From positions 1-11,729 of the forward strand of contig JACCTK010000201.1 in assembly GCA_013812465.1 (NCBI GenBank): DNA of 11,729 bases, read 5' to 3'. The number at the start of each line of letters is the position of its first letter. Position 1 is the stretch's first letter. This document shows positions 743 to 11,552 of the stretch, piece after piece. The notes below the pieces were generated by a model. The model worked only from the letters and a program-made list of their open reading frames with translations, did no database searches and was not told where the DNA came from. Made by a program: the position numbers and the translations under genes. This DNA comes from Actinomycetota bacterium. GTDB taxonomy: Bacteria > Actinomycetota > Thermoleophilia > Gaiellales > Gaiellaceae.

Positions 743-1144
743 ATGGACGCTTGGGACGACTGGCCCTTTGCCCGCGTGTACCTGCTGTTCCTCGTAATCG
801 CCTTCGTGAGCCTCGGCGCCCAAGTGCTGCTCTTCCACTGGCGGGCCGGATTCAGCCGCTGGACGATGTACGGACCGGTGTTCCTGGCGCCCGTGATCGC
901 CCTCGCAGCCGTGGTCGCGGCGATCGCGCGGGACGGCATCGTCGGCTGGTTAGCTCTCGTCGTCTTCGCGCTCGGAGTCCTCTCCGGACTCGTCGGCGTC
1001 TACGAGCACTTCAACGGCATCCGACGGCGGATCGGCGGCTTCTCGTTGCGCAACCTGATGAGCGGCCCGCCGCCTTTTCTGCCCGGGGCGTACCTGTTGC
1101 TCTCTCTGACCGGGGGCGTCGCCCTCATCTGGCAGGCGCTATGA
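743..1144 (+). CDS. Small four-helix integral membrane protein
   Basis: A 133-residue membrane protein whose family I do not recognise. Four hydrophobic segments are visible at about residues 12-32, 43-62, 66-87 and 114-132. A basic loop containing GIRRRIGG lies between the third and fourth. There is no cleavable signal peptide. The start is the ATG at 743; there is no clear Shine-Dalgarno site. The stop overlaps the next start (ATGA at 1141-1144), so it is translationally coupled to the gluconate-dehydrogenase subunit-3-like gene and, through it, to the GMC dehydrogenase. A membrane anchor or quinone-side partner for that dehydrogenase is a reasonable inference from position alone. No heme-ligand pattern stands out. 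Confidence 0.75.
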   Translation: MDAWDDWPFARVYLLFLVIAFVSLGAQVLLFHWRAGFSRWTMYGPVFLAPVIALAAVVAAIARDGIVGWLALVVFALGVLSGLVGVYEHFNGIRRRIGGFSLRNLMSGPPPFLPGAYLLLSLTGGVALIWQAL

Positions 1145-1686
1145 AGCCGCTCGACCGGCTAGGACGGAAGGAGCGGGCGATCGTCGAGGAGCGCCAAGAG
1201 ACCGGCTACCGGAAGGACAACCTCGAGCACTTCGGAGGCGAGCTCGAGCCCGAGCTGCGCGCGTTCGTCGCGCGACTACTTCCCGGTGTCCCGGAATCGA
1301 TCGATCTCTCCGCGTTCGTGGATGCGCACGCAGAGGACCCGATCGGCCGCGGCGACCGTTCCCCGGGGTTGCCGGCGAACGCCGCGTTGCTTCGGCTGGG
1401 CCTGAGAGCCCTTCTCAGGCAGGGGTTCTCTCGGCTGGCCGAGGACGAGCAGAACGAACTGATCGGCCGCATGCGTCGCGGCGAAGCCGATCAGGAGCTT
1501 GGCCTGCCCGCCAAGGAGTTCATCGACCGCCTGCTCGTCAAGGCTCTCGCCGGGTACCTCGCCCATCCCGACACCTGGGAGCGGATCGGCTTCAACGGCC
1601 CGGCCTATCCCGAGGGTTATTCCTGGATCGGGCGAACCGGCGTCGCGAGGCGTCACGAGAAGTTCCCCGGAGCGACCCGCCTGTGA
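1141..1686 (+). CDS. Gluconate 2-dehydrogenase subunit 3-like protein
   Basis: A 181-residue soluble protein resembling the small (gamma, subunit 3) partner of membrane-linked gluconate and sugar dehydrogenases. The strongest signature is the C-terminal stretch around residues 134-165: LAGYLAHPDTWERIG, then PAYPEGYSWIG. In known complexes this subunit accompanies the GMC flavoprotein and often carries a Tat signal. None is visible here, so this version may work in the cytoplasm. The start at 1141 overlaps the previous stop by ATGA, and its own stop overlaps the GTG of the GMC gene (GTGA at 1683-1686). This is the arrangement expected for a stoichiometric complex. The open frame extends upstream to 568, but that part is out-of-frame readthrough of the membrane-protein gene. 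Confidence 0.75.
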   Translation: MKPLDRLGRKERAIVEERQETGYRKDNLEHFGGELEPELRAFVARLLPGVPESIDLSAFVDAHAEDPIGRGDRSPGLPANAALLRLGLRALLRQGFSRLAEDEQNELIGRMRRGEADQELGLPAKEFIDRLLVKALAGYLAHPDTWERIGFNGPAYPEGYSWIGRTGVARRHEKFPGATRL

Positions 1687-3261
1687 CGAGCGCGCCTCCC
1701 GTACGCGTTGACGAGCTGAAACGCCTCATGCAGCACCACGACGGGCCGGTTGACGCCTGCATCGTCGGCTGCGGAGCGGGTGGCTCCGTTCTCGCCAAGG
1801 AGCTAGCCGAGGGTGGGATGAGCGTGGTCGTGATCGAGGCCGGCGATTGGATCGACTCGCGCGAGGACATGGTCAACGACGAGCTCTCGATGATCGGGCC
1901 GCTCGACTGGGACGACCTAAGGATCAGCGGGGGTCAGCGATCCGATCAAGACGGGCAGGGTGAACACGGGTCGCGCGGTCGGAGGGACCACCGTCCACTT
2001 CACCGCGATGTCACTTCGGCTCGACCCGAGCGACTTCGAGATCGCCACGCGCGATGGCGTGGGCGTCGACTGGCCGTTCGGCTACGACGAGCTCGCTCCC
2101 TACTACGCCGAGGTTGAACGCGCGCTGCCGGTTTCGGGCCCGCGCCGTTCGGCCTGGCCCTCCGGTGCGCCCTATCCGCACGGCGCGCTCCCCTGGTCGG
2201 CGAAGGACCACACGCTCGGCGCGGGCATGGCCGAGTGCGGGCTGCACGTCGAGATGACGCCCCACGCGATCGCGACGACGCCCGTCGACGGTCGCAGCGC
2301 GTGCATGTACTACGGCTTCTGTATGGACGGCTGCAAGAGCGATGCGAAGGGCGGGATGCAGGTCACCTACGTTCCGAAGGCTGTCGCGGCAGGCGCGGAG
2401 ATCCGGGCCAACTGCTTCGCGCTTCGCGTCGAGACGGAGCAAGGGCGCGCAACCGGCGTCACGTACCTCGAGGAGGGCGTGGAGCGCTTTCAGCCTGCAG
2501 CGCGGGTGTTCGTCTGCTGCTACGCGATCGAGACTCCGCGGCTCCTCCTGAGCTCGGGCAATCTTGCCAACTCGAGCGACCAGGTGGGGCGGAACCTGAT
2601 GGTGCACTCGGGACCGATCGTGTACGGCCGCTTCGACCGGCCGCTCGACAGCTTCGTCACGCCTCCGGTCGGGGTGATGACGCGCGACCCCTACGCATCC
2701 GACGAGTCGCGCGGCTTCGTCCGCGGGTTTCTCCTCAACACCTATGCCCAGTTCCCGATCAACTTCGCGCAGAGCCTCGTCGGGAGCAACCCAGACCTGT
2801 GGGGCAACGACCTCATGGAGGTGCTCGACGAGTACGCGCACTGGGGACTTGTCGCGAGCCTGGGCGAGGTGCTGCCGAATCCGGAGAACCGCGTCACGCT
2901 CGCCGACGAGGTGGACTCGAACGACGTCCCGGTTGCTCGGATCACGTTCTCGTACGGCGAGAACGACAAGGCCATCGTCGAGGCCGAGCGGGCGCTCTCC
3001 GAGCAGGTCGTGCAGGCGGCCGGCGCGACGAGGACGCTTGTCAGCGAGGGGACGCACCACGTCCTCGGCACGGCCCGCATGGGAACGGATCCCGAGACGT
3101 CGGTCGTCGGCCCGGACTGCCGGACGCACGACGTCTCCAACCTGTGGATCTGCGACGGCTCGGTCTTGCCCTCGGTCGGCGCGGTCAACCCGAGCCTGAC
3201 CATCGAGGCGCTCGCACTGCGCACCGCGCGACTCGCCCTTACGAATAGAGGTCCCTCGTGA
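1683..3261 (+). CDS. GMC-family FAD-dependent sugar/alcohol dehydrogenase, large subunit (one-base frameshift)
   Basis: The catalytic flavoprotein of a glucose-methanol-choline type dehydrogenase, which oxidises a sugar, polyol or aldonate and passes electrons to a carrier. The N-terminus has the FAD-binding GCGAGG motif (residues 29-34) and VVIEAG. Residues near 98-106 read AVGGTTVHF. Three cysteines (about 207, 213, 217, in ACMYYGFCMDGC) sit where bacterial FAD-glucose dehydrogenases hold an iron-sulfur cluster. The C-terminus has the GMC catalytic His (HHVLGTARMG, about 458-459) and Asn (AVNPSLTIEA, about 502). The frame shifts at a run of five Gs (1929-1933). Removing one G gives RISGVSDPIKTGRVNTGRAV and a full 525-residue protein, so a sequencing indel is likely. 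GTG start at 1683, with GGAG at about 1669. The stop overlaps the next GTG. Confidence 0.85.
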
Positions 3262-5048
3262 GCGAGACAGTGTCCGACTTCCTCGTCCAGCGCCTCCACG
3301 ACTGGGGCATCAGGCGTATCTATGGCTACCCCGGCGACGGCATCAACGGGATCATGGGCGCGCTCCAGCGAGCCGAGGAGCGCATGGAGTTCGTCCAGGT
3401 GCGGCACGAGGAGATGGCCGCCTTCATGGCCTGCGGGCACGCGAAGTGGACCGGCGAGGTCGGCGTCTGCCTCGCGACCTCGGGGCCCGGCGCGATCCAT
3501 CTCCTGAACGGGCTCTACGACGCGAAGCTCGACCACCAGCCGGTCGTGGCGATCGTCGGCCAGCAGGCCCGAGCCGCTCTCGGGGGCTCGTATCAGCAGG
3601 AGGTCGATCTCACGACGCTGTTCAAGGACGTGGCCAGCGAGTACGTGCAGATGGCGACCGAGCCGAGCCAGATGCGGCACGTCGTCGACCGAGCGCTTCG
3701 CATCGCGCAGGCGAAGCGCACGGTGACCTGCATCATCGTCCCCAACGATCTCCAGAACGAGCCGGCCGAGGAGCCGCCCCGCGAGCACGGGACGATCCAC
3801 TCCGGCATCGGCTACAGCCGGCCGGAAGTGGTTCCACGCGATGACGACCTCCGCCGCGCCGCCGAGGTGCTGAACGCTGGCGAGCGGGTCGCCATCCTCG
3901 TCGGCCAGGGCGCGCTCGCCGCGACCGGGGAAGTCGTCGAGACCGCGGACGTCCTCGGGGCCGGGGTCGCCAAGGCGCTCCTCGGCAAGGCGGCGGTACC
4001 CGACGACCTGCCCTTCGTCACGGGCTCGATCGGGTTGCTCGGCACGCGGCCGAGCTGGGAGCTGATGACGGGCTGCGACACGCTCCTGATGGTCGGGACG
4101 AGCTTCCCGTACTCGGAGTTCCTGCCCGAGGAAGGCCAGGCGCGGCGCGCGGCGTTCAGATCGACATCGACGCCGCGAGGCTCGGCATCCGCTACCCGAC
4201 CGAGGTCAACCTGGTCGGTGACAGCGCCGCCACGCTGCGAGCGCTGCGGCCGTACCTGGAACGCAAGGCAAGCCGCTCCTGGCGAGAGCAGGTCGATGAG
4301 AACGTCAACCACTGGTGGCAGGTGCTGGAGGAGCGGGCGCTGCAGGACGCCGATCCGATCAACCCGCAGCGCGTCTTCTGGGAGCTGTCGCAGCGTCTTG
4401 CCGACCGCTGCATCCTGACCTCCGACTCGGGCACGGCCGCGAACTGGTTCGCGCGCGATCTTCGGCTCCGGAGCGGGATGATGGCCTCGGTCTCCGGCAA
4501 CCTGGCGAGCATGGGGTGCGGCGTCCCCTACGCGATCGCGGCCAAGTTCGCCCCACCCGGACCGGGTCGCCATCGCCCTCGTGGGCGACGGCGCCATGCA
4601 GATGAACGGCCTCGCCGAGCTCGTCACCATCGCCAAGTATTGGAGACGCTGGTCGGACCCGCGTCTCGTCGTCGCGGTCCTGAACAACCGTGACCTGAAC
4701 ATGGTCACCTGGGAGCAGCGGGTGATGGAGGGCAATCCGAAGTACGCCGCCTCACAAGAGATCCCGGACGTCCCGTATGCCCGCTTCGCCGAGATGGTCG
4801 GCCTCCAGGGCATGCGCGTCGAGGAGCCGGGAGAGATCGCGTCGGCCTGGGAAACGGCGCTCGCCGCCGATCGGCCGGTCGTCCTCGACGTCGTCACCGA
4901 TCCTGAGGTGCCGCCGCTGCCGCCGCACATCACTCTCGAGCAGGCAAAGAACTTCGCCCTCGCCGTCGCCAAGGGCGATCCGGGTCGGCGCGGCATGATC
5001 GAGAACTCGCTCAGGCAGAAGGTCGCGGAGCTGCTGGCCAGGAGGTAG
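3258..5048 (+). CDS. Thiamine-diphosphate-dependent enzyme, pyruvate oxidase/acetolactate synthase-like (two frameshifts)
   Basis: A ThDP enzyme of about 596 residues with the usual three domains, acting on a 2-oxo acid. Domain 1 has GYPGDGINGI and the catalytic Glu (E51 in VRHEEMAAFMA), then ATSGPGAIHLLNGLYDA. The middle domain contains VAILVGQGA and RYPTEVNLVGD. The C-terminal domain has the GDG...NN cofactor motif (VGDGAMQMNG to VLNNRDLNMVTWEQR). The reading changes frame twice: in a GC-rich stretch at about 4136-4157, and at CCCC (4551-4554), where dropping one C restores FAHPDRVAIALVGDG. These look like sequence indels rather than decay, since all motifs survive. It resembles the actinobacterial group annotated thiamine pyrophosphate-requiring protein. 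It may cleave or decarboxylate a 2-oxo acid made by neighbouring enzymes; the substrate is not known. GTG start with GAGG seven bases upstream. Confidence 0.85.
5040..5045 (+). promoter_or_regulatory. Ribosome binding site of the enolase-superfamily gene
   Basis: A perfect AGGAGG overlaps the end of the preceding gene. It lies 5 bases before the GTG at 5051 and 8 bases before a second GTG at 5054, so either codon could be the start. The second has the more usual spacing. The proteins differ by one residue. Confidence 0.7.
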
Positions 5049-6151: not shown

Positions 6152-6576
6152 GGACAAAGCTCCTTCACCGAAACGGCGAGCGGACGTACGTGCTCGTCTT
6201 CGACAAGGACGACGCGGTGATCGAGGAGCTCGAAGGGTTCGCGCGCGAGTGCGAGCTCCCGGCCGCCCGCTTTACCGCGATCGGTGCATTCAGTTACGTG
6301 AAGCTCGGCTACCTTGACCGGGGGCGGACCGGATATCTCGAGATCTCGCTCGAAGAGCAGGTCGAGGTGCTCTCGTTGCTCGGTGACATCGCCGAGCACG
6401 AGGGACAGCCGAAGGTGCACGCGCACGTCGTCGTCGGTCGCCGTGACGGCCGCACGCGCGGCGGCCATCTGCTCGAGGCGCATGTGTGGCCGACGCTCGA
6501 GCTGATGCTCGAGGAGTCGCCCGAGCACCTGCGCCGACGGATCGACGAGGAGACCGTTCCGCTGATCGTGCTTTGA
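6148..6576 (+). CDS. PCC/DUF296-domain protein
   Basis: A 142-residue single-domain protein of the PCC (plant and prokaryote conserved, DUF296) family, which forms trimers and in plants is fused to AT-hooks. Recognisable parts are the start YVLVFDKDDAVIEELEGFA, then FTAIGAFSYVKLGYLD, HAHVVVGRRDG, GGHLLEAHVWPTLELMLEE and the ending RRIDEETVPLIVL. H91, H93 and H107 match the family's presumed metal-binding histidines. No DNA-binding hook is present, so the bacterial role is unclear. The start is the ATG at 6148 overlapping the previous stop (ATGA), and GGAG lies about 12 bases upstream. It is the last gene of the operon, followed by a hairpin terminator. Confidence 0.85.
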   Translation: MRTKLLHRNGERTYVLVFDKDDAVIEELEGFARECELPAARFTAIGAFSYVKLGYLDRGRTGYLEISLEEQVEVLSLLGDIAEHEGQPKVHAHVVVGRRDGRTRGGHLLEAHVWPTLELMLEESPEHLRRRIDEETVPLIVL

Positions 6577-6614
6577 GCTGTTCCGAGTCGGACGTGATGG
6601 ATTTCCTGCGCGTC

Positions 6615-6641
6615 GGGCGGACCGGCGATGTCGGTCCGCCC
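6615..6641. terminator. Bidirectional hairpin terminator
   Basis: A perfect 10-bp stem (GGGCGGACCG paired with CGGTCCGCCC) with a 7-base loop lies between the stops of two converging genes, 38 bases after the PCC gene and 13 bases after the Gly/Ser/Gln-rich gene. There is no strong T tract, as is usual in high-GC actinobacteria. Confidence 0.7.
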
Positions 6642-6654
6642 TCGTGCTACCGAC

Positions 6655-6921
6655 TCACCTCGCGCCACTGGACTCTTCGTCCTGGGGGCTCTCCATTTCG
6701 CCTTGGCCCCCGGTGCCGTTCTCGGAACCGCCGCTCTGCGAGCTCCCGCCTTGCGAGCCGCCGCCCTGCGAGCCCCCGCCCGAAGAACCGCCGGTCTCCG
6801 GTCCACCCTGCGAGCCGCCGCTCTGGGAACCGCCCTGCGAGCCGCCGCTCTGCGAACCGCCTTCCTGACCACTCTGTGAGCTGCCGCCTTGGCCGCTCTC
6901 TCTTTCCTCCTCGGGGTTCAT
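6655..6921 (-). CDS. Small Gly/Ser/Gln-rich low-complexity protein
   Basis: An 88-residue protein built from short repeats of the GGSQSGGSQG kind (about residues 18-66), flanked by acidic ends (NPEEERES and EMESPQDEESSGAR). Met is its only large hydrophobic residue: there is no Phe, Tyr, Trp, Leu, Ile, Val, Cys, Lys or His. It is therefore almost certainly disordered and soluble. The gene is supported by an AAGGAG site ending six bases before the ATG at 6921, a stress-sigma-type promoter upstream and a terminator downstream. I know no defined family. Small hydrophilic proteins of this composition in other bacteria are often induced by stress or drying, so a protective role is possible but unproven. 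Overlapping plus-strand frames are artefacts of the repeat. Confidence 0.75.
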   Translation of the reverse strand: MNPEEERESGQGGSSQSGQEGGSQSGGSQGGSQSGGSQGGPETGGSSGGGSQGGGSQGGSSQSGGSENGTGGQGEMESPQDEESSGAR

Positions 6922-6952
6922 CTCGTCTCCTTTCCCTCGAGGTTACGCGGAT

Positions 6953-6978
6953 TTACCCGTGTGTGCTCGACGGTAAAC
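6953..6978 (-). promoter_or_regulatory. Stress-sigma (SigB/SigF-type) promoter, leftward
   Basis: On the minus strand GTTTAC (6978-6973) and GGGTAA (6958-6953) are separated by 14 bases, close to the SigB/SigF consensus GTTT...GGGTA. Transcription would start near 6946, leaving a leader of about 25 bases with the AAGGAG site before the ATG at 6921. Its -35 lies in the left arm of a 10-bp inverted repeat shared with the ku promoter. Confidence 0.65.
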
Positions 6979-7003
6979 GGACACGAACGCCGCCCGTTTA
7001 CCG
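6971..7003. repeat. 10-bp inverted repeat carrying both -35 elements
   Basis: CGGTAAACGG (6971-6980) and CCGTTTACCG (6994-7003) form a perfect inverted repeat with a 13-base spacer. Each arm holds the GTTTAC -35 of one of two divergent promoters. The symmetry may simply come from two back-to-back -35 boxes or may also be an operator. Confidence 0.7.
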
Positions 7004-7022
7004 GTCACGTGAGATTGGGTAC
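6996..7022 (+). promoter_or_regulatory. Stress-sigma (SigB/SigF-type) promoter of ku
   Basis: GTTTAC (6996-7001) and GGGTAC (7017-7022) are separated by 15 bases. The ATG of ku is only nine bases after the -10, so the transcript would be leaderless or nearly so. That agrees with the lack of any Shine-Dalgarno sequence before ku. Confidence 0.65.
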
Positions 7023-7031
7023 CCGGACTTC

Positions 7032-7865
7032 ATGCCGCGTGCGATCTGGTCGGGCAGCATCGCCTTCGGGCTCGTCAACGCTCCGGTGAAGATGTACAGC
7101 GCGATCGACGAGCACGATCTCGAGCTCCACCTCGTCCACGAGAAGGACGGCTCGCCGATCGGCTACGAGAAGGTCTGCAAGAAGGAAGGGCGCGAGGTCC
7201 CCGCGAACGAGATCGTCAAGGCGTACGAGGTCGAGGACGGCGAGCTCGTCTACCTCGAGGAGGAGGATTTCGAGGCGGCCGAGGAGGAGGGATACCGCAC
7301 GATTCAAGTCCTCGATTTCGTCCAGCGCGAAGAGATCGATCCGATCGTCTTCCAGCGGAGCTATTACCTCGGCCCGGCGGAGGGAGCCGAGAAGGTGTAT
7401 CTGGTCCTCGTTCGTGCGATGGAGGACTCGGGTCTCTCTGCGATCGTCGAATACGTGTTCCAGCAGAAGCAGCAACTCGGGTGCCTACGGGTGCGCGAGG
7501 GCCTTATCTTGCTCGAGGCGATGTACTTCGCCGACGAGATACGTCCAGTCAAAGGCATCGCGCCGAAACGCAGCTCGAAACTCGACAAGCGCGAGCTCGA
7601 GATGGCGCAGACCCTCATCGACCGCTTCACGTCCGACTTCGATCACGGCAAGTACGAGGACGAGTATCGAAAGCGTCTTTTGAAGATCGTGAAGCGCAAG
7701 CTTCGCGGCGAGGAGGTCCATGCGCCTCCGCGCGAGAGGCAAGAGGCACCCTCCGACCTCCTCGAGGCGTTGCGCGCGAGCGTGGAGGCGGCGAAAGGCG
7801 TAAAGAACGGACGCTCGAAGAGGCATGCAACCAGCCGCCGCAGACCGAAAGCACGGAAGCGGTAG
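7032..7865 (+). CDS. ku: Non-homologous end-joining DNA-binding protein Ku
   Basis: A 277-residue bacterial Ku, the homodimeric ring that binds DNA double-strand ends and recruits LigD. It begins MPRAIWSGSIAFGLVNAPVK, typical of the family. It continues with IGYEKVCKKEGREVP, RTIQVLDFVQREEIDPIVFQ, RSYYLGP, VYLVLVRAMEDSG and REGLILLEAMYFADEIR, then RELEMAQTLIDRF with a conserved helix. The C-terminus is a basic tail (KNGRSKRHATSRRRPKARKR), as in Ku proteins that contact DNA beyond the ring. The open frame extends far upstream, but the family start is the ATG at 7032, just after a SigB/SigF-like -10. No ligD is present in the window. The next gene begins 28 bases downstream and is probably co-transcribed. 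Confidence 0.95.
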   Translation: MPRAIWSGSIAFGLVNAPVKMYSAIDEHDLELHLVHEKDGSPIGYEKVCKKEGREVPANEIVKAYEVEDGELVYLEEEDFEAAEEEGYRTIQVLDFVQREEIDPIVFQRSYYLGPAEGAEKVYLVLVRAMEDSGLSAIVEYVFQQKQQLGCLRVREGLILLEAMYFADEIRPVKGIAPKRSSKLDKRELEMAQTLIDRFTSDFDHGKYEDEYRKRLLKIVKRKLRGEEVHAPPRERQEAPSDLLEALRASVEAAKGVKNGRSKRHATSRRRPKARKR

Positions 7866-7893: not shown

Positions 7894-8856
7894 ATGGTCG
7901 AACTCGGCTATCAGCTGTCGAGCGAGGAGCACTCCGCTCCCGACCTCGTCGGTTACGCGCGGCGCGCCGAGGAGGTCGGATTCTCGTACGCGGTCCTCTC
8001 CGATCACTACCACCCGTGGACGCATAGGCAGGGACAGTCACCGTTCGCCTGGGCCGTACTCGGCGCGGTTGCACACGCGACTCGGCGACTGCGCCTCGGC
8101 ACGGTGACCGCGCCGATCCGCCGTACCCCGCCGTACCTCGTCGCTCAGGCGGCGGCTACAGTGACCACGCTGATGCCGGGTCGCTTCTTTCTCGGCGTCG
8201 GTACCGGCGAGAACCTGAACGAGCACGTCACCGGCGAGTGGTGGCCGCCCAGTGAGATTCGACGCGAGATGCTCGAGGAGGCGGTCGACGTGATGAGGAA
8301 GCTGTGGGCCGGCGGAACCGTCGAGCACTTCGGCCGGCACTACACGGTTGACAACGCACGTATCTACTCGCGCCCGCTCGAGCCGCCGGCGGTCGTCGTC
8401 GCCGCCACGGGCGCCGACGGAGCCGAGTTCGCGGGCCGGATCGGCGACGGGCTGATGGCCGTCTCACCCTCCGAGGAGCTCGTGCAGGCGTTCGAGGAGG
8501 CAGGCGGCAGAGGGAAACCGCGCTACGCGCAGATCGACGTCTGCGTCGCCGACGACGAGGCCGAGGCGCGCCGGATCGCGCGGGCGCAGTGGACGGCGCC
8601 TGCTGCGATTCCATCGAGGCTCCTGAGCAAGCTCCGCGTCCCGGCCGACTTCCAGGCTGTCGCCGAGCTCGTGTCCGAGGAGGAGGTGTGCGAGCGCATC
8701 CTCTGCGGCGCCGATCCGGACGCGCATCTTGCCCGGATCGGAGAGTTCGTCGACGCCGGCTTCGACCACGTGCACGTGCACCAGGTCGGGGCGGATCAGG
8801 AGACGTTCTTCCGCTTCTACGAACGCAACGTGCTCCCGCGCGTGCGGGAGCTCTGA
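7894..8856 (+). CDS. F420-dependent LLM-class oxidoreductase (TIGR03557-like)
   Basis: A 320-residue TIM-barrel flavin/F420 oxidoreductase of the luciferase-like class. Signatures include ELGYQLSSEEHSAPDLVGYA, FSYAVLSDHYHPW, RLRLGTVTAPIRRTPP, LMPGRFFLGVGTGENLNEHV and the C-terminal FDHVHVHQVGADQETFFRFY. It resembles the group related to F420-dependent glucose-6-phosphate dehydrogenase, which transfers a hydride between coenzyme F420 and an unknown substrate. The start is the ATG at 7894, with GGAG about 9 bases upstream. It sits between ku and the rhodanese-CBS gene with gaps of 28 and 14 bases, so all three probably share the ku promoter. The substrate cannot be read from sequence. Confidence 0.9.
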   Translation: MVELGYQLSSEEHSAPDLVGYARRAEEVGFSYAVLSDHYHPWTHRQGQSPFAWAVLGAVAHATRRLRLGTVTAPIRRTPPYLVAQAAATVTTLMPGRFFLGVGTGENLNEHVTGEWWPPSEIRREMLEEAVDVMRKLWAGGTVEHFGRHYTVDNARIYSRPLEPPAVVVAATGADGAEFAGRIGDGLMAVSPSEELVQAFEEAGGRGKPRYAQIDVCVADDEAEARRIARAQWTAPAAIPSRLLSKLRVPADFQAVAELVSEEEVCERILCGADPDAHLARIGEFVDAGFDHVHVHQVGADQETFFRFYERNVLPRVREL

Positions 8857-8870
8857 AAGGAAGGTTTGCG

Positions 8871-9572
8871 ATGCCGGAGATGATCGAGCTCGAGGAAGTC
8901 CAAAGTCTGGTCGACGAAGGTGCGCAGCTGCTCGACGTGATGTCGCGCGGCGAGTACGAGGACAGCCACCTCCCTGGAGCGATCCACATCTCGCTGAAGG
9001 AGCTCGACGCGCAGAGCGCGGCAAAGCTCGATCGTGACCGGCCGGTGATCGCGTACTGCTACGACTACCAGTGAAACATGAGCGCACGAGCCGCGTGGCG
9101 GCTCGAGCAGCTCGGCTTCGAGCGGGTCTACGACTACGTCGGCAGCAAGGCCGACTGGTTCGCCTGCGGCATGCCACGGGAGGGAAAGTCAGCCGAGGTG
9201 CCGTGGGCGGGAGATCTCGTCCGAGACGACGTCTCGACGTGCGCCCCCGACGACCGTGTCGGCGAGCTACGCGACCGAGTCGTTGACAGCGGGTACGACT
9301 TTTGCGTGGTCGTGAACGAGCATCGGATCGTCCTGGGGCTTCTGCGCGGCGACGCGCTCAGCAAGGACGCAACTGCCCGAGCAGATGAGGTGATGGAGCT
9401 CGGTCCGAAGACGATCCTCCCGAGCAACCCCGTCGAGAAGCTGCTCGGGTCGAGATCGAGTCAGGGCGTGAAGCACTGGGTCGTCGCCACATCGCACGGA
9501 GCTCTCCTCGGAGTCCTGAGCCGCGCGGAGGCCGAAAGGGCGCTCGAGGACAACCGAGCGCGAGCCGAGTAA
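8871..9572 (+). CDS. Rhodanese-CBS protein with in-frame TGA in the active-site loop (candidate selenoprotein)
   Basis: One continuous 233-codon frame is interrupted only by TGA at codon 68 (9072-9074). Residues 1-105 form a rhodanese domain: LLDVMSRGEYEDSHLPGAIH, then VIAYCYDYQ with the predicted catalytic Cys63. After the TGA come N-MSARAAWRLEQLGFERV and YDYVGSKADWFACG. From my memory of related rhodaneses, a second Cys often stands at this position (C-x4-C). Residues about 110-228 form two CBS motifs (LVRDDVSTCAPDDRVGELRD and DEVMELGPKTILPSNPVEKL), which commonly bind adenine nucleotides. A GAAAGGAAGG site precedes the ATG at 8871. Either selenocysteine is inserted at codon 68, or the gene has a nonsense change, with reinitiation at ATG 9078 giving a rhodanese cut within its active-site loop. 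A nearby tRNA-Sec gene favours the first reading. Confidence 0.8.
9087..9105 (+). promoter_or_regulatory. Candidate bacterial SECIS hairpin
   Basis: A perfect 8-bp stem (CGAGCCGC with GCGGCTCG) closes a GTG loop. The loop begins 20 bases after the in-frame TGA, inside the coding sequence. The bacterial SECIS model asks for a stem-loop shortly downstream of UGA, with a G among the first loop bases at roughly 16-37 bases, and this fits. High GC content and the codons for RAAWRL can also make such a hairpin by chance. Confidence 0.45.
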
Positions 9573-10340: not shown

Positions 10341-10436
10341 CGGAGCGGCGCCGGAGTCGAACCGACCGAGCCGTGCTCTACACGACCGCACTGGTTTTGA
10401 AGGGACCAGCTGGGCCACCGGGCCTAATGCCGCTCC
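10341..10436 (-). tRNA. selC: tRNA-Sec, anticodon TCA
   Basis: A 96-nt tRNA that carries selenocysteine to UGA codons. Read on the minus strand it has a perfect 8-bp acceptor stem (GGAGCGGC with GCCGCTCC), a 6-position D stem with the 4-base loop CGGT as in E. coli selC (one A-C mismatch), an anticodon stem CTGGT/ACCAG, a long variable arm (stem GTCGTG/CACGGC, loop TAGAG) and a T arm GTCGG-TTCGACT-CCGGC. The 8+5 bp acceptor branch, long variable arm and TCA anticodon (10398-10400) together identify tRNA-Sec and rule out an ordinary tRNA-Ser. Oddities: the anticodon loop is 9 rather than 7 bases (two extra Cs), and CCA is not encoded after discriminator G. It implies selA, selB and selD elsewhere in the genome. 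Confidence 0.92.
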
Positions 10437-10452: not shown

Positions 10453-10649
10453 CGGAGTCGGCTGGCTGTGCGCAAGCTTCACGAGGCCGGAGGGCGATTC
10501 ACTCGCCCCGGAGGCCAAGAAAGGCCGATCCGTCCTCCAACCAGAAGAAGGGCTCGCGGGGGAAACATGGTTCCCCCGCGCTACACCGGGCCCATGCCGC
10601 TCCGGCCCCAGACTAGATCACGTGCGTCGCACGGCGCGGTGCGGCCACG
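10437..10649. other. Hairpin-rich intergenic region upstream of selC
   Basis: No convincing protein gene is present here. Structures seen include a 6-bp hairpin GGGCGA/TCGCCC at 10492-10508 with flanking GGCC pairs (10485-10488, 10513-10516), GGCC-AAGAAA-GGCC at 10513-10526, and a perfect 10-bp stem CGCGGGGGAA/TTCCCCCGCG at 10555-10580 with loop ACATGG. On the minus strand the last is followed by a pyrimidine-rich TTCTTCT, so it could be a terminator. The region could also be a structured RNA leading into selC. It matches no SRP RNA, tmRNA, RNase P RNA or second tRNA that I can recognise. Confidence 0.45.
10584..10620. repeat. Degenerate direct repeat, copy 2 of the selC 5' end
   Basis: On the minus strand this reads a TAGTCT element followed by GGAGCGGCAT and GGGCCCGGTG, near-identical to the selC start. 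It then diverges, with no matching anticodon arm, T arm or 3' acceptor. It is a partial duplication or a relic of an older selC copy, not a second tRNA. Confidence 0.6.
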
Positions 10650-10653
10650 CTAA

Positions 10654-11552
10654 GAGCGCCTAACAAAATGACTCCTCCTTGGTGAGGAGCTTGAGGCAGA
10701 TGAGGCAACCGGCGATCTGGAGGAAGGCTTCGTGGATGTCGGCGCGGCGTTCGTAGCGGACGCGCAGTCGTCGGTATTGGTGAAGCCAGGCGATCGTGCG
10801 CTCGACGACCCAGCGCTGCTTGCCGAGCCCGGATCCGTGCGACTGCTTCGGGCGCGAGATCGCCGCCTCGATGCCGCGGGCGCGCAGCTCCTGGGGTGAC
10901 GGCGGGAGTGGTAGGCGCCGTCTGCGAGCAGCCGCCCTGGCCGGCGGCGGGGTCGGCCGCGCTTGCCCCGCACCGGCGGTATTGCATCGACGAGCGGCAG
11001 CAGCTCGAGGACGTCGTTGTGGTTGCCGCCGCTGAGCGAGAGCGCGAGCGGGGTTCCACGTCCACAGGTCAGCGTATGGTGCTTGGAGCCGCTCCTGGCG
11101 CGGTCGACAGGGCTTGGTCCCGTCTTCTCGCCCCCCCGACAGCGCGCACATGCGAGCTGTCGATCACCGCCCGCGACCACTCGATCCGGTCGGCCTCGTT
11201 CAGCTTCGCCAACAGCAGCTCGTGCAGCTGCCGCCAAACACCCTGCTCTTGCCACTCCTTCAACCGGCGCCAGCAGGTCATCCCCGATCCGCAGCCCATC
11301 TCCTTGGGCAGGTACTCCCACGGAATCCCCGTCTGCAGCACGAACAGGATCCCCGTCAACACCTTCCGATCGTCGATCCGCCTGCGCCCCGGGAACCGGT
11401 AGCGACGCTCGACCTTCGGAAGCAACGGCTCGAGGAGCTGCCACAGCTCGTCGCTGACCAGCGTCTTTGCCATCTGCGCCCATCCTTTCAAGCGAGGGTG
11501 ACGCAGCAGTATTCGCCGCCCAACCGCAGGACTCTTCTTTTCGTTAGGCGCT
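10654..11552 (-). mobile_element. IS5-family insertion sequence
   Basis: An element of about 899-900 bp. Terminal inverted repeats share GAGCGCCTAAC at both ends (10654-10664, and 11543-11553 reversed), after which similarity is patchy. It is flanked by CTAA on both sides (10650-10653 and 11553-11556). Depending on whether the last C is counted in the element, the duplication is TAA or CTAA; both fit IS5-family groups. It carries one transposase gene, read leftward, whose stop lies inside the left repeat. Confidence 0.85.
10660..11473 (-). pseudogene. IS5-family (IS427-like) transposase in three frames
   Basis: A DDE transposase of about 270 residues when the frames are joined. Frame 1 (from ATG 11473) begins AKTLVSDELWQLLEPLLPKV, has the helix-turn-helix part GILFVLQTGIPWEYLPKEMG, and reaches the first Asp in AVIDSSHVRAVGG. 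Frame 2 reads EKTGPSPVDRARSGSKHHTL, then LSGGNHNDVLELLPLVDAIP, and the second Asp in LLADGAYHS. Frame 3 gives QELRARGIEAAIS and the Glu segment WVVERTIAWLHQYRRLRVRY. The first change is a -1 shift at seven Gs (forward C run 11131-11137), like the programmed shifts of two-ORF IS427-group elements. The second, near 10893-10901, has no such excuse and probably inactivates the gene unless it is a base error. Confidence 0.85.

Follow-up and report, generated by a model that had tools for sequence, protein, structure and literature searches.

The window, defined as the whole 11,729-nt stretch of DNA analysed (contig JACCTK010000201.1 of an Actinomycetota bacterium), contained a gene predicted to encode a selenoprotein composed of a rhodanese domain and a CBS pair (Table 1). 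Translation gave a single frame of 233 residues in which codon 68 was the sole in-frame TGA, as claimed in the original prediction made from the sequence. The gene started 14 nt after the end of an F420-dependent LLM-class oxidoreductase gene, and the two likely share a transcript. Furthermore, a tRNA-Sec gene was located 769 bp past the end of the rhodanese-CBS gene, which agrees with the distance of less than 0.8 kb given in that prediction.

Table 1. Features of the rhodanese-CBS locus in the window
Feature	Position	Strand	Evidence and remarks
F420-dependent LLM-class oxidoreductase gene	7894..8856	+	TIGR03557, 394 bits (cut-off 210); TGA end codon
Ribosome-binding-like purine-rich stretch	8857..8864	+	6 nt 5' of the start codon; sequence
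Rhodanese-CBS selenoprotein gene (predicted)	8871..9572	+	233 codons and TAA; TGA 68 read through
Rhodanese domain, residues 7-98	8889..9164	+	Pfam PF00581, E 6.4e-17
Cys63 codon TGC, rhodanese catalytic-loop Cys	9057..9059	+	TGA in 22/80 readable sites
In-frame TGA, predicted Sec68 of the C-x4-U loop	9072..9074	+	TGA in 69/79 related loci, Cys in 10/79
SECIS-like hairpin within the coding sequence	9087..9105	+	8-bp stem, GUG loop
CBS pair, residues ~109-225	9195..9545	+	Limits from structure matches; PF00571 at 113-158
tRNA-Sec (UCA) gene	10342..10436	-	Rfam RF01852, 57.6 bits (cut-off 47), E 1.2e-10

Elsewhere in the window, a Ku DNA-end-binding protein gene (Pfam Ku) was found at 6486-7865 on the forward strand. 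Transposase-like ORFs in overlapping frames, recognized from their translations, were located near the tRNA-Sec gene at 10613-11491 on the reverse strand and probably represent an insertion sequence. A thiamine-pyrophosphate enzyme gene (3258-5048) and a GMC oxidoreductase gene (1683-3261) each seemed to extend across two or three reading frames, which points to indels or assembly errors in the record. Because of these apparent frameshifts, single bases of the window were not considered trustworthy alone.

The read-through protein passed the curated Pfam cut-offs for both domains of the proposed rhodanese-CBS fusion. The rhodanese model PF00581 scored 62.3 bits against a cut-off of 22.2, and the CBS model PF00571 passed narrowly with 24.4 bits against a cut-off of 24 (E 3.8e-5). 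In addition, CBS-pair structures matched the read-through structure model over approximately residues 109-230 in VIA-align. This model, in which residue 68 was modelled as Cys, had a pLDDT of 94.1. Residues 63-69 formed a loop between a strand (residues 59-62) and a helix (residues 70-80), and the TGA-encoded residue was located in this catalytic loop. In the model, the nucleophile position 63 is placed in the strand-helix loop as in the rhodanese domain.

When the window protein was used as the query of a protein search, 255 relatives were obtained, and the following figures refer to the 120 matches listed. The alignments of 104 of these homologs began at query residues 69-73, just past the TGA, and those of 10 others at residues 76-101. 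Such a clustering of starts right after the TGA is the pattern left by gene calls that an in-frame stop has truncated. Only six of the 120 were full-length, and all six had Cys at position 68. A plasmid search gave four records, in which the Rubrobacter marinus gene (identical with locus L032) and two Pseudonocardia genes carried TGA and one Nonomuraea gene carried Cys. In the two Pseudonocardia plasmids, the annotation shows a 'rhodanese' gene and a 'CBS domain' gene separated at the TGA. That of the R. marinus plasmid gave the CBS half only, in a gene table that is incomplete by its own account. If the selenoprotein assignment is right, these split or halved genes, together with the 104 of 120 listed homologs that begin after the TGA, imply that public annotation is wrong for this gene.

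The codon aligned to position 68 was then read from genomic DNA. One genome per species was scanned with peptide patterns downstream of codon 68, a procedure that does not select for the codon itself, and 82 relatives were found, 80 of which were kept as 79 loci. The Cys codon was TGC in nine loci and TGT in one, and all of the others carried TGA. Addition of the window and of the second L030 copy brought the set to 81 sites (71 TGA and 10 Cys); the stop was TGA in 71 of 71 cases and never TAA or TAG. The interchange of TGA and Cys at codon 68, which had been proposed as a check of the prediction, was thus observed directly. The Cys loci belonged to eight Streptomyces, one Nonomuraea, and one metagenome-assembled genome (MAG; L071). 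The family occurs in Actinomycetota, Chloroflexota, and, judged from record titles, some bins of other phyla. The two copies in L030, both of the double-Sec form described below, were located on one contig at 4131 and 11511, ~7.4 kb apart. Locus L062 contained three stops in the aligned stretch, and both L062 and L079 had short C-terminal parts.

When 129 genomes belonging to the same order as the nearest genome were scanned as a further sample, 12 matches were obtained from 10 of them. Each of the 12 contained one in-frame TGA, with a TAG besides in one of them, and in the nine whose TGA was located it was placed at the Cx4U site. At least four of the 12 matches repeated loci of the first set; three of these were among the nine located, and the fourth was L091, which shares its genome with L019 and has coordinates that fit.

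The locus of the nearest genome, L001, encoded a protein with 75% identity to the window protein. Comparison of the two genes gave dN/dS values of 0.165/0.637 before the TGA and 0.138/0.581 after it (~0.24 after), which indicates purifying selection on both sides. Decay after the stop, an outcome named in the original prediction as contrary to it, was not observed. These rates also bear on the possibility that the TGA reflects a pseudogene or a sequencing error. Genes elsewhere in the window have apparent frameshifts, and TGA is one base away from TGC or TGT. However, TGA occupied the site in 69 of 79 loci, and the sequence after the stop remains constrained. The TGA carriers include named isolates and complete plasmid records, so a read error is not the cause, and the chance that codon 68 is a defect of either kind appears negligible.

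An alternative is a real stop followed by a second, translationally coupled protein starting from an ATG two codons past it. Codon 70 was ATG in the window and in 54 of the 71 TGA sites in all, and the two Pseudonocardia plasmid copies have been annotated as two genes. However, codon 70 was CTC, CTA, or ATC in 11 of the 71 sites, none of which is a usual start, and CTG in five and TTG in one. The stop was TGA at every site, the aligned halves lay in one frame, and the Cys homologs were continuous. Moreover, a split here would sever the rhodanese loop just past its catalytic Cys. Two coupled proteins are therefore considered very unlikely, and the in-frame TGA is better explained as a codon that is read through.

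The hairpin downstream of the TGA, noticed in the original prediction as a perfect 8-bp stem with a loop starting with G, was confirmed. Its sequence was CGAGCCGC-GTG-GCGGCTCG, with eight perfect pairs, G as the first of the three loop nucleotides, and a distance of 20 nt past the TGA. The 25-nt element at 9084-9108 had a folding energy of -16.5 kcal/mol, and none of 200 dinucleotide shuffles folded as well. When the 42 nt after the TGA were considered, one of 200 shuffles did so. The bacterial SECIS rules given in PMC13188914 are a loop of 3-9 nt, a stem of 4-16 pairs, G within the first two loop positions, a spacing of 16-37 nt, and a minimum free energy of -7.5 kcal/mol or lower; the window hairpin, with 8 pairs, a 3-nt loop beginning with G, a spacing of 20 nt, and an energy of -16.5 kcal/mol, falls within all of them.

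Covariation in the hairpin was weak, with one compensatory cell. Because the hairpin hardly varies, covariation says little, and a synonymous-codon test was used instead, in which codons were drawn at the usage of each gene and the stem pairs were counted out of eight. The 71 TGA sites retained a mean of 7.51 pairs against 5.20 expected, whereas the 10 Cys sites had 5.5 against 4.9. Taken singly, 53 of the 71 TGA sites had P < 0.05 (0.029 for the window) and just seven had P < 0.01, and none of the 10 Cys sites reached P < 0.05; because of the relatedness of the loci, the single-site values cannot be multiplied. The codon choice at individual residues was consistent with this result. Arg73 was encoded by CGA, CGG, AGG, or AGA in all 71 TGA sites and never by CGC or CGT, Leu78 by CTC or CTT and never by CTG, and Ala74 by GCC in 70 of 71. 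Residue 76 had the codon TGG, TGC, or TGT in 57 of the 71 TGA sites compared with none of the 10 Cys sites, as though the choice of amino acid were imposed by the RNA. By this measure, the hairpin is kept by codon choice in the TGA loci and not in the Cys loci. At 67 of the 71 TGA sites, a G stood within the first two loop positions; the remaining four, L030 (two copies), L039, and L052, had the loop UUG and formed one branch of the tree. On the other hand, total folding energy over the 57 nt after the site did not separate TGA from Cys loci (-21.0 vs -21.1), and of three further TGA loci folded singly, two gave a z-score near -0.8.

The window tRNA-Sec, as judged from the alignment to the Rfam model, had the anticodon UCA in the loop CUUCAAA, a variable arm that was long, and an acceptor stem of eight pairs; it was not found by ARAGORN. 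In the genomes, the tRNA-Sec model gave many matches of 40-54 bits per genome set, which we take to be other tRNAs. In addition, five of the 14 control genomes gave matches above the model's own cut-off, and a line of 60 bits was adopted for these reasons. The window match lies under that line, and its identity was decided by the UCA anticodon.

The Sec machinery was searched in 50 of the 75 genomes with loci (40 TGA and 10 Cys) and in the 14 controls. SelB was over its cut-off in 31 of the 40 TGA genomes, tRNA-Sec exceeded 60 bits in 24, and at least one of the two was present in 34. The four named TGA isolates, Rubrobacter marinus, Haloechinothrix halophila, Pseudonocardia sp. N23, and P. 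nigra, each had both. In the nearest genome, that of L001, SelA, SelB, and tRNA-Sec were located together on one contig. Six TGA genomes, all MAGs according to their titles (G014, G016, G023, G029, G041, and G042), gave no SelB, no tRNA-Sec above 60 bits, and no SelA over the cut-off. Five of the 10 Cys genomes had tRNA-Sec above 60 bits together with a SelB match, which in four of them fell slightly short of the cut-off. Neither was found in the remaining five, and SelA was absent from these as well. Among the controls, SelB was over the cut-off in 2 of 14. As background, of 100 genomes from the phylum to which the nearest genome belongs, 65 had SelA over its cut-off, so that the presence of Sec machinery is only mildly informative. 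The machinery agrees with the selenoprotein reading but does not carry it. At one locus, L043, a selD gene (selenide, water dikinase; 751-1764, reverse strand; TIGR00476 over its cut-off) adjoined the rhodanese-CBS gene on the opposite strand.

A UGA codon decoded as another amino acid, for example as Cys or Trp by an unusual tRNA, would also give a continuous protein, and a reading as Cys, the aligned residue in the relatives, would keep its function. However, 41 of the 71 TGA-type genes (including the short L062 and L079) end with UGA, as does the LLM oxidoreductase gene in the window, so that a general reassignment of the codon does not apply. The presence of a SECIS-like hairpin and of a tRNA-Sec also speaks against this explanation, which is regarded as highly improbable.

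Taken together, the interchange of TGA and Cys, the truncated gene calls, the hairpin held by codon choice, the selection on both sides, the machinery, and the structure model all favour the proposal that the UGA encodes Sec, and codon 68 is almost certainly a Sec codon, as far as comparison of genes can establish it. That 8871-9572 encodes a Cys63-x4-Sec68 rhodanese-CBS selenoprotein working by the mechanism outlined below is considered highly probable, in a judgement weighted to the decoding. The original prediction of a single new selenoprotein was supported in its core, and the case proved wider, since by the comparative evidence the gene belongs to a widespread family, part of which would contain two Sec residues.

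The second Sec would occupy the position of the catalytic Cys. At codon 63, 58 of the 80 readable sites had Cys, and the sites with TGA correspond to a U-x4-U pair with Sec68. The UGA at codon 63 would be 35 nt from the loop of the same hairpin, which is within the published range of 16-37 nt (PMC13188914). If the reading is right, the double-Sec branch offers a test of how one hairpin serves two UGAs, 15 nt apart in step. In a rapidly built tree of 80 rows, many of whose forks had weak support, both site 68 and site 63 required three changes. The Cys68 form L071 was sister to the Sec form L076 with an SH-aLRT support of 100%. The genome of L071, a MAG, gave no SelA, no SelB over the cut-off, and no tRNA-Sec above 60 bits, which may reflect incompleteness of the MAG. 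The natural Sec and Cys forms would allow a direct test of the contribution of Sec to a rhodanese.

The gene neighbourhood was compared among the loci. Immediate-neighbour ORFs were picked by codon-scored gene choice, giving 147, of which 135 were scanned with Pfam; false genes may remain among them. MFS_1 was the commonest family with six occurrences, followed by MerB, ArsR-type HTH_5, Usp, and luciferase-like oxidoreductase (window included) with four each, glutaredoxin and Pyr_redox_2 with three each, and MerR with two; most families occurred once or twice. No conserved single operon around the gene was found in this analysis. Relatives of the LLM oxidoreductase adjoined the gene on its upstream side in L001 and on its downstream side in L071 and L076. 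On the Pseudonocardia autotrophica plasmid, the gene was preceded, in order, by MerR, alkylmercury lyase, and a small DF-family protein, and relatives of this small upstream protein were found within 4 kb in nine loci. Among the loci tested with the DF-family model NF049942, the proteins of L012, L020, and L028 and that of the plasmid passed, and that of L058 fell just under the cut-off (59 vs 70). In Chloroflexota loci, a conserved putative membrane protein of ~300 residues was encoded directly downstream of the gene in L009, L013, and L023 and upstream in L039; its L013 copy had no Pfam or NCBIfam match. The neighbours, though variable, fit redox or soft-metal stress.

These neighbours bear on the substrate. 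Sec could be real, with the protein handling organomercury or metalloids instead of sulfane sulfur; Sec68 and Cys63 would then bind or release a soft metal as part of a MerB-like detoxification set. The MerB, HTH_5, MerR, glutaredoxin, and Pyr_redox_2 genes counted above and the gene order on the P. autotrophica plasmid speak for this assignment. However, the neighbourhoods vary, most loci are without these genes, the commonest neighbour family is MFS_1, and the window gene adjoins an F420 oxidoreductase. A soft-metal role is accordingly judged unlikely, although it deserves to be kept in mind.

As supported by the gene comparisons, UGA 68 is probably read as Sec by tRNA-Sec and SelB, guided by the hairpin within the gene. 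For the predicted Cys63-x4-Sec68 protein acting on sulfane sulfur, the following mechanism can be sketched; it is tentative and stands well below the decoding in confidence. Cys63, or Sec63 in the double-Sec branch, would take up sulfane sulfur or another soft electrophile. Sec68 would then attack the adduct on residue 63, releasing the product and leaving a selenylsulfide. The selenylsulfide would be re-reduced by a thioredoxin-like partner, perhaps the DF-family protein that adjoins the gene in some loci. The combination of a sulfane-sulfur nucleophile and a further redox residue five positions later suggests a cycle of the persulfide or thiol reductase type in preference to simple sulfur transfer. 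Adenine nucleotides are frequent ligands of CBS pairs. The CBS pair of this protein probably senses an adenine nucleotide, and that it gates the activity is a guess. The final steps, namely resolution, re-reduction, and nucleotide sensing, are inferred from the fold, the motif, and the neighbours. The most extended form of this proposal, a widespread and so far unlisted family with either a Cys/Sec or a diselenide (U-x4-U) pair, one hairpin for both UGAs, and a CBS pair that sets a nucleotide-gated persulfide, thiol, or organometal reductase, is doubtful as a whole.

Known Sec-containing rhodaneses were compared with the protein. A 2026 inventory (PMC13188914) counts 119 prokaryotic selenoprotein families, and its Table 1 contains five rhodanese forms with the motifs UxxS, UxxG, CxU, UxxG, and UxxxxU (TsoB). 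In the text of that paper, CxxxxU and 'CBS' had no occurrences, and a term search of the deep-Sep paper (PMC12013277) gave no hits for rhodanese or CBS. No single paper combining a selenoprotein, a rhodanese, and a CBS domain was found in a search with most subscription papers outside its coverage. Among the models of NCBIfam release 20.0 listed at E <= 0.001, none was passed by the window protein or by any of nine relatives.

TsoB (NF045694, rhodanese/DsbD fusion-like; 'rhodanese form 5' in Table 1 of PMC13188914) has the UxxxxU spacing of the double-Sec branch. Its model weakly matched the rhodanese part, with 26.3 bits for the window protein and 47 for L033. However, the model has 572 positions and a cut-off of 805 bits, and the window protein matched positions 49-162 only. 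TsoB has a DsbD-like part, according to the model name, whereas the protein described here has a CBS pair and, in the window, a Cx4U motif. The source for TsoB is Haft and Tolstoy (2025; PMC12013261). A search of 151 genomes from the phylum to which genome G033 belongs gave no TsoB match over the cut-off. In genomes of that phylum, two loci, L097 and L101, matched the DsbD-like part of the TsoB model and had one in-frame TGA each; they are possibly further selenoproteins.

The rhodanese-related (seleno)protein NF041203 ('form 3' in PMC13188914) resembles the predicted protein in having Sec beside the catalytic Cys of a rhodanese. However, its spacing is CxU compared with Cx4U in the window, its model has 126 positions and so lacks the CBS pair, and the window protein scored 33.7 bits against its cut-off of 115. 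BH2092, whose structure is solved (PDB codes 3nhv and 3o3w), is a stand-alone rhodanese that has Cys where the window has the predicted Sec and no CBS pair. This structure, the six full-length homologs, and the ten Cys loci confirm the second loop Cys that the original prediction attributes to related rhodaneses. The DF-family (seleno)protein NF049942 is another selenoprotein family recently listed in Table 1 of PMC13188914. Its members are separate proteins of ~100 residues, neighbours and not relatives of the rhodanese-CBS protein, and the forms upstream in several loci are without an in-frame TGA.

Sec-containing rhodaneses are thus known, and the predicted Cx4U rhodanese-CBS protein is a form absent from PMC13188914, with TsoB compared by profile, motif, and name. 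If the assignment is true, it adds a Sec-rhodanese form, occurring in Actinomycetota and Chloroflexota, to those of that inventory.
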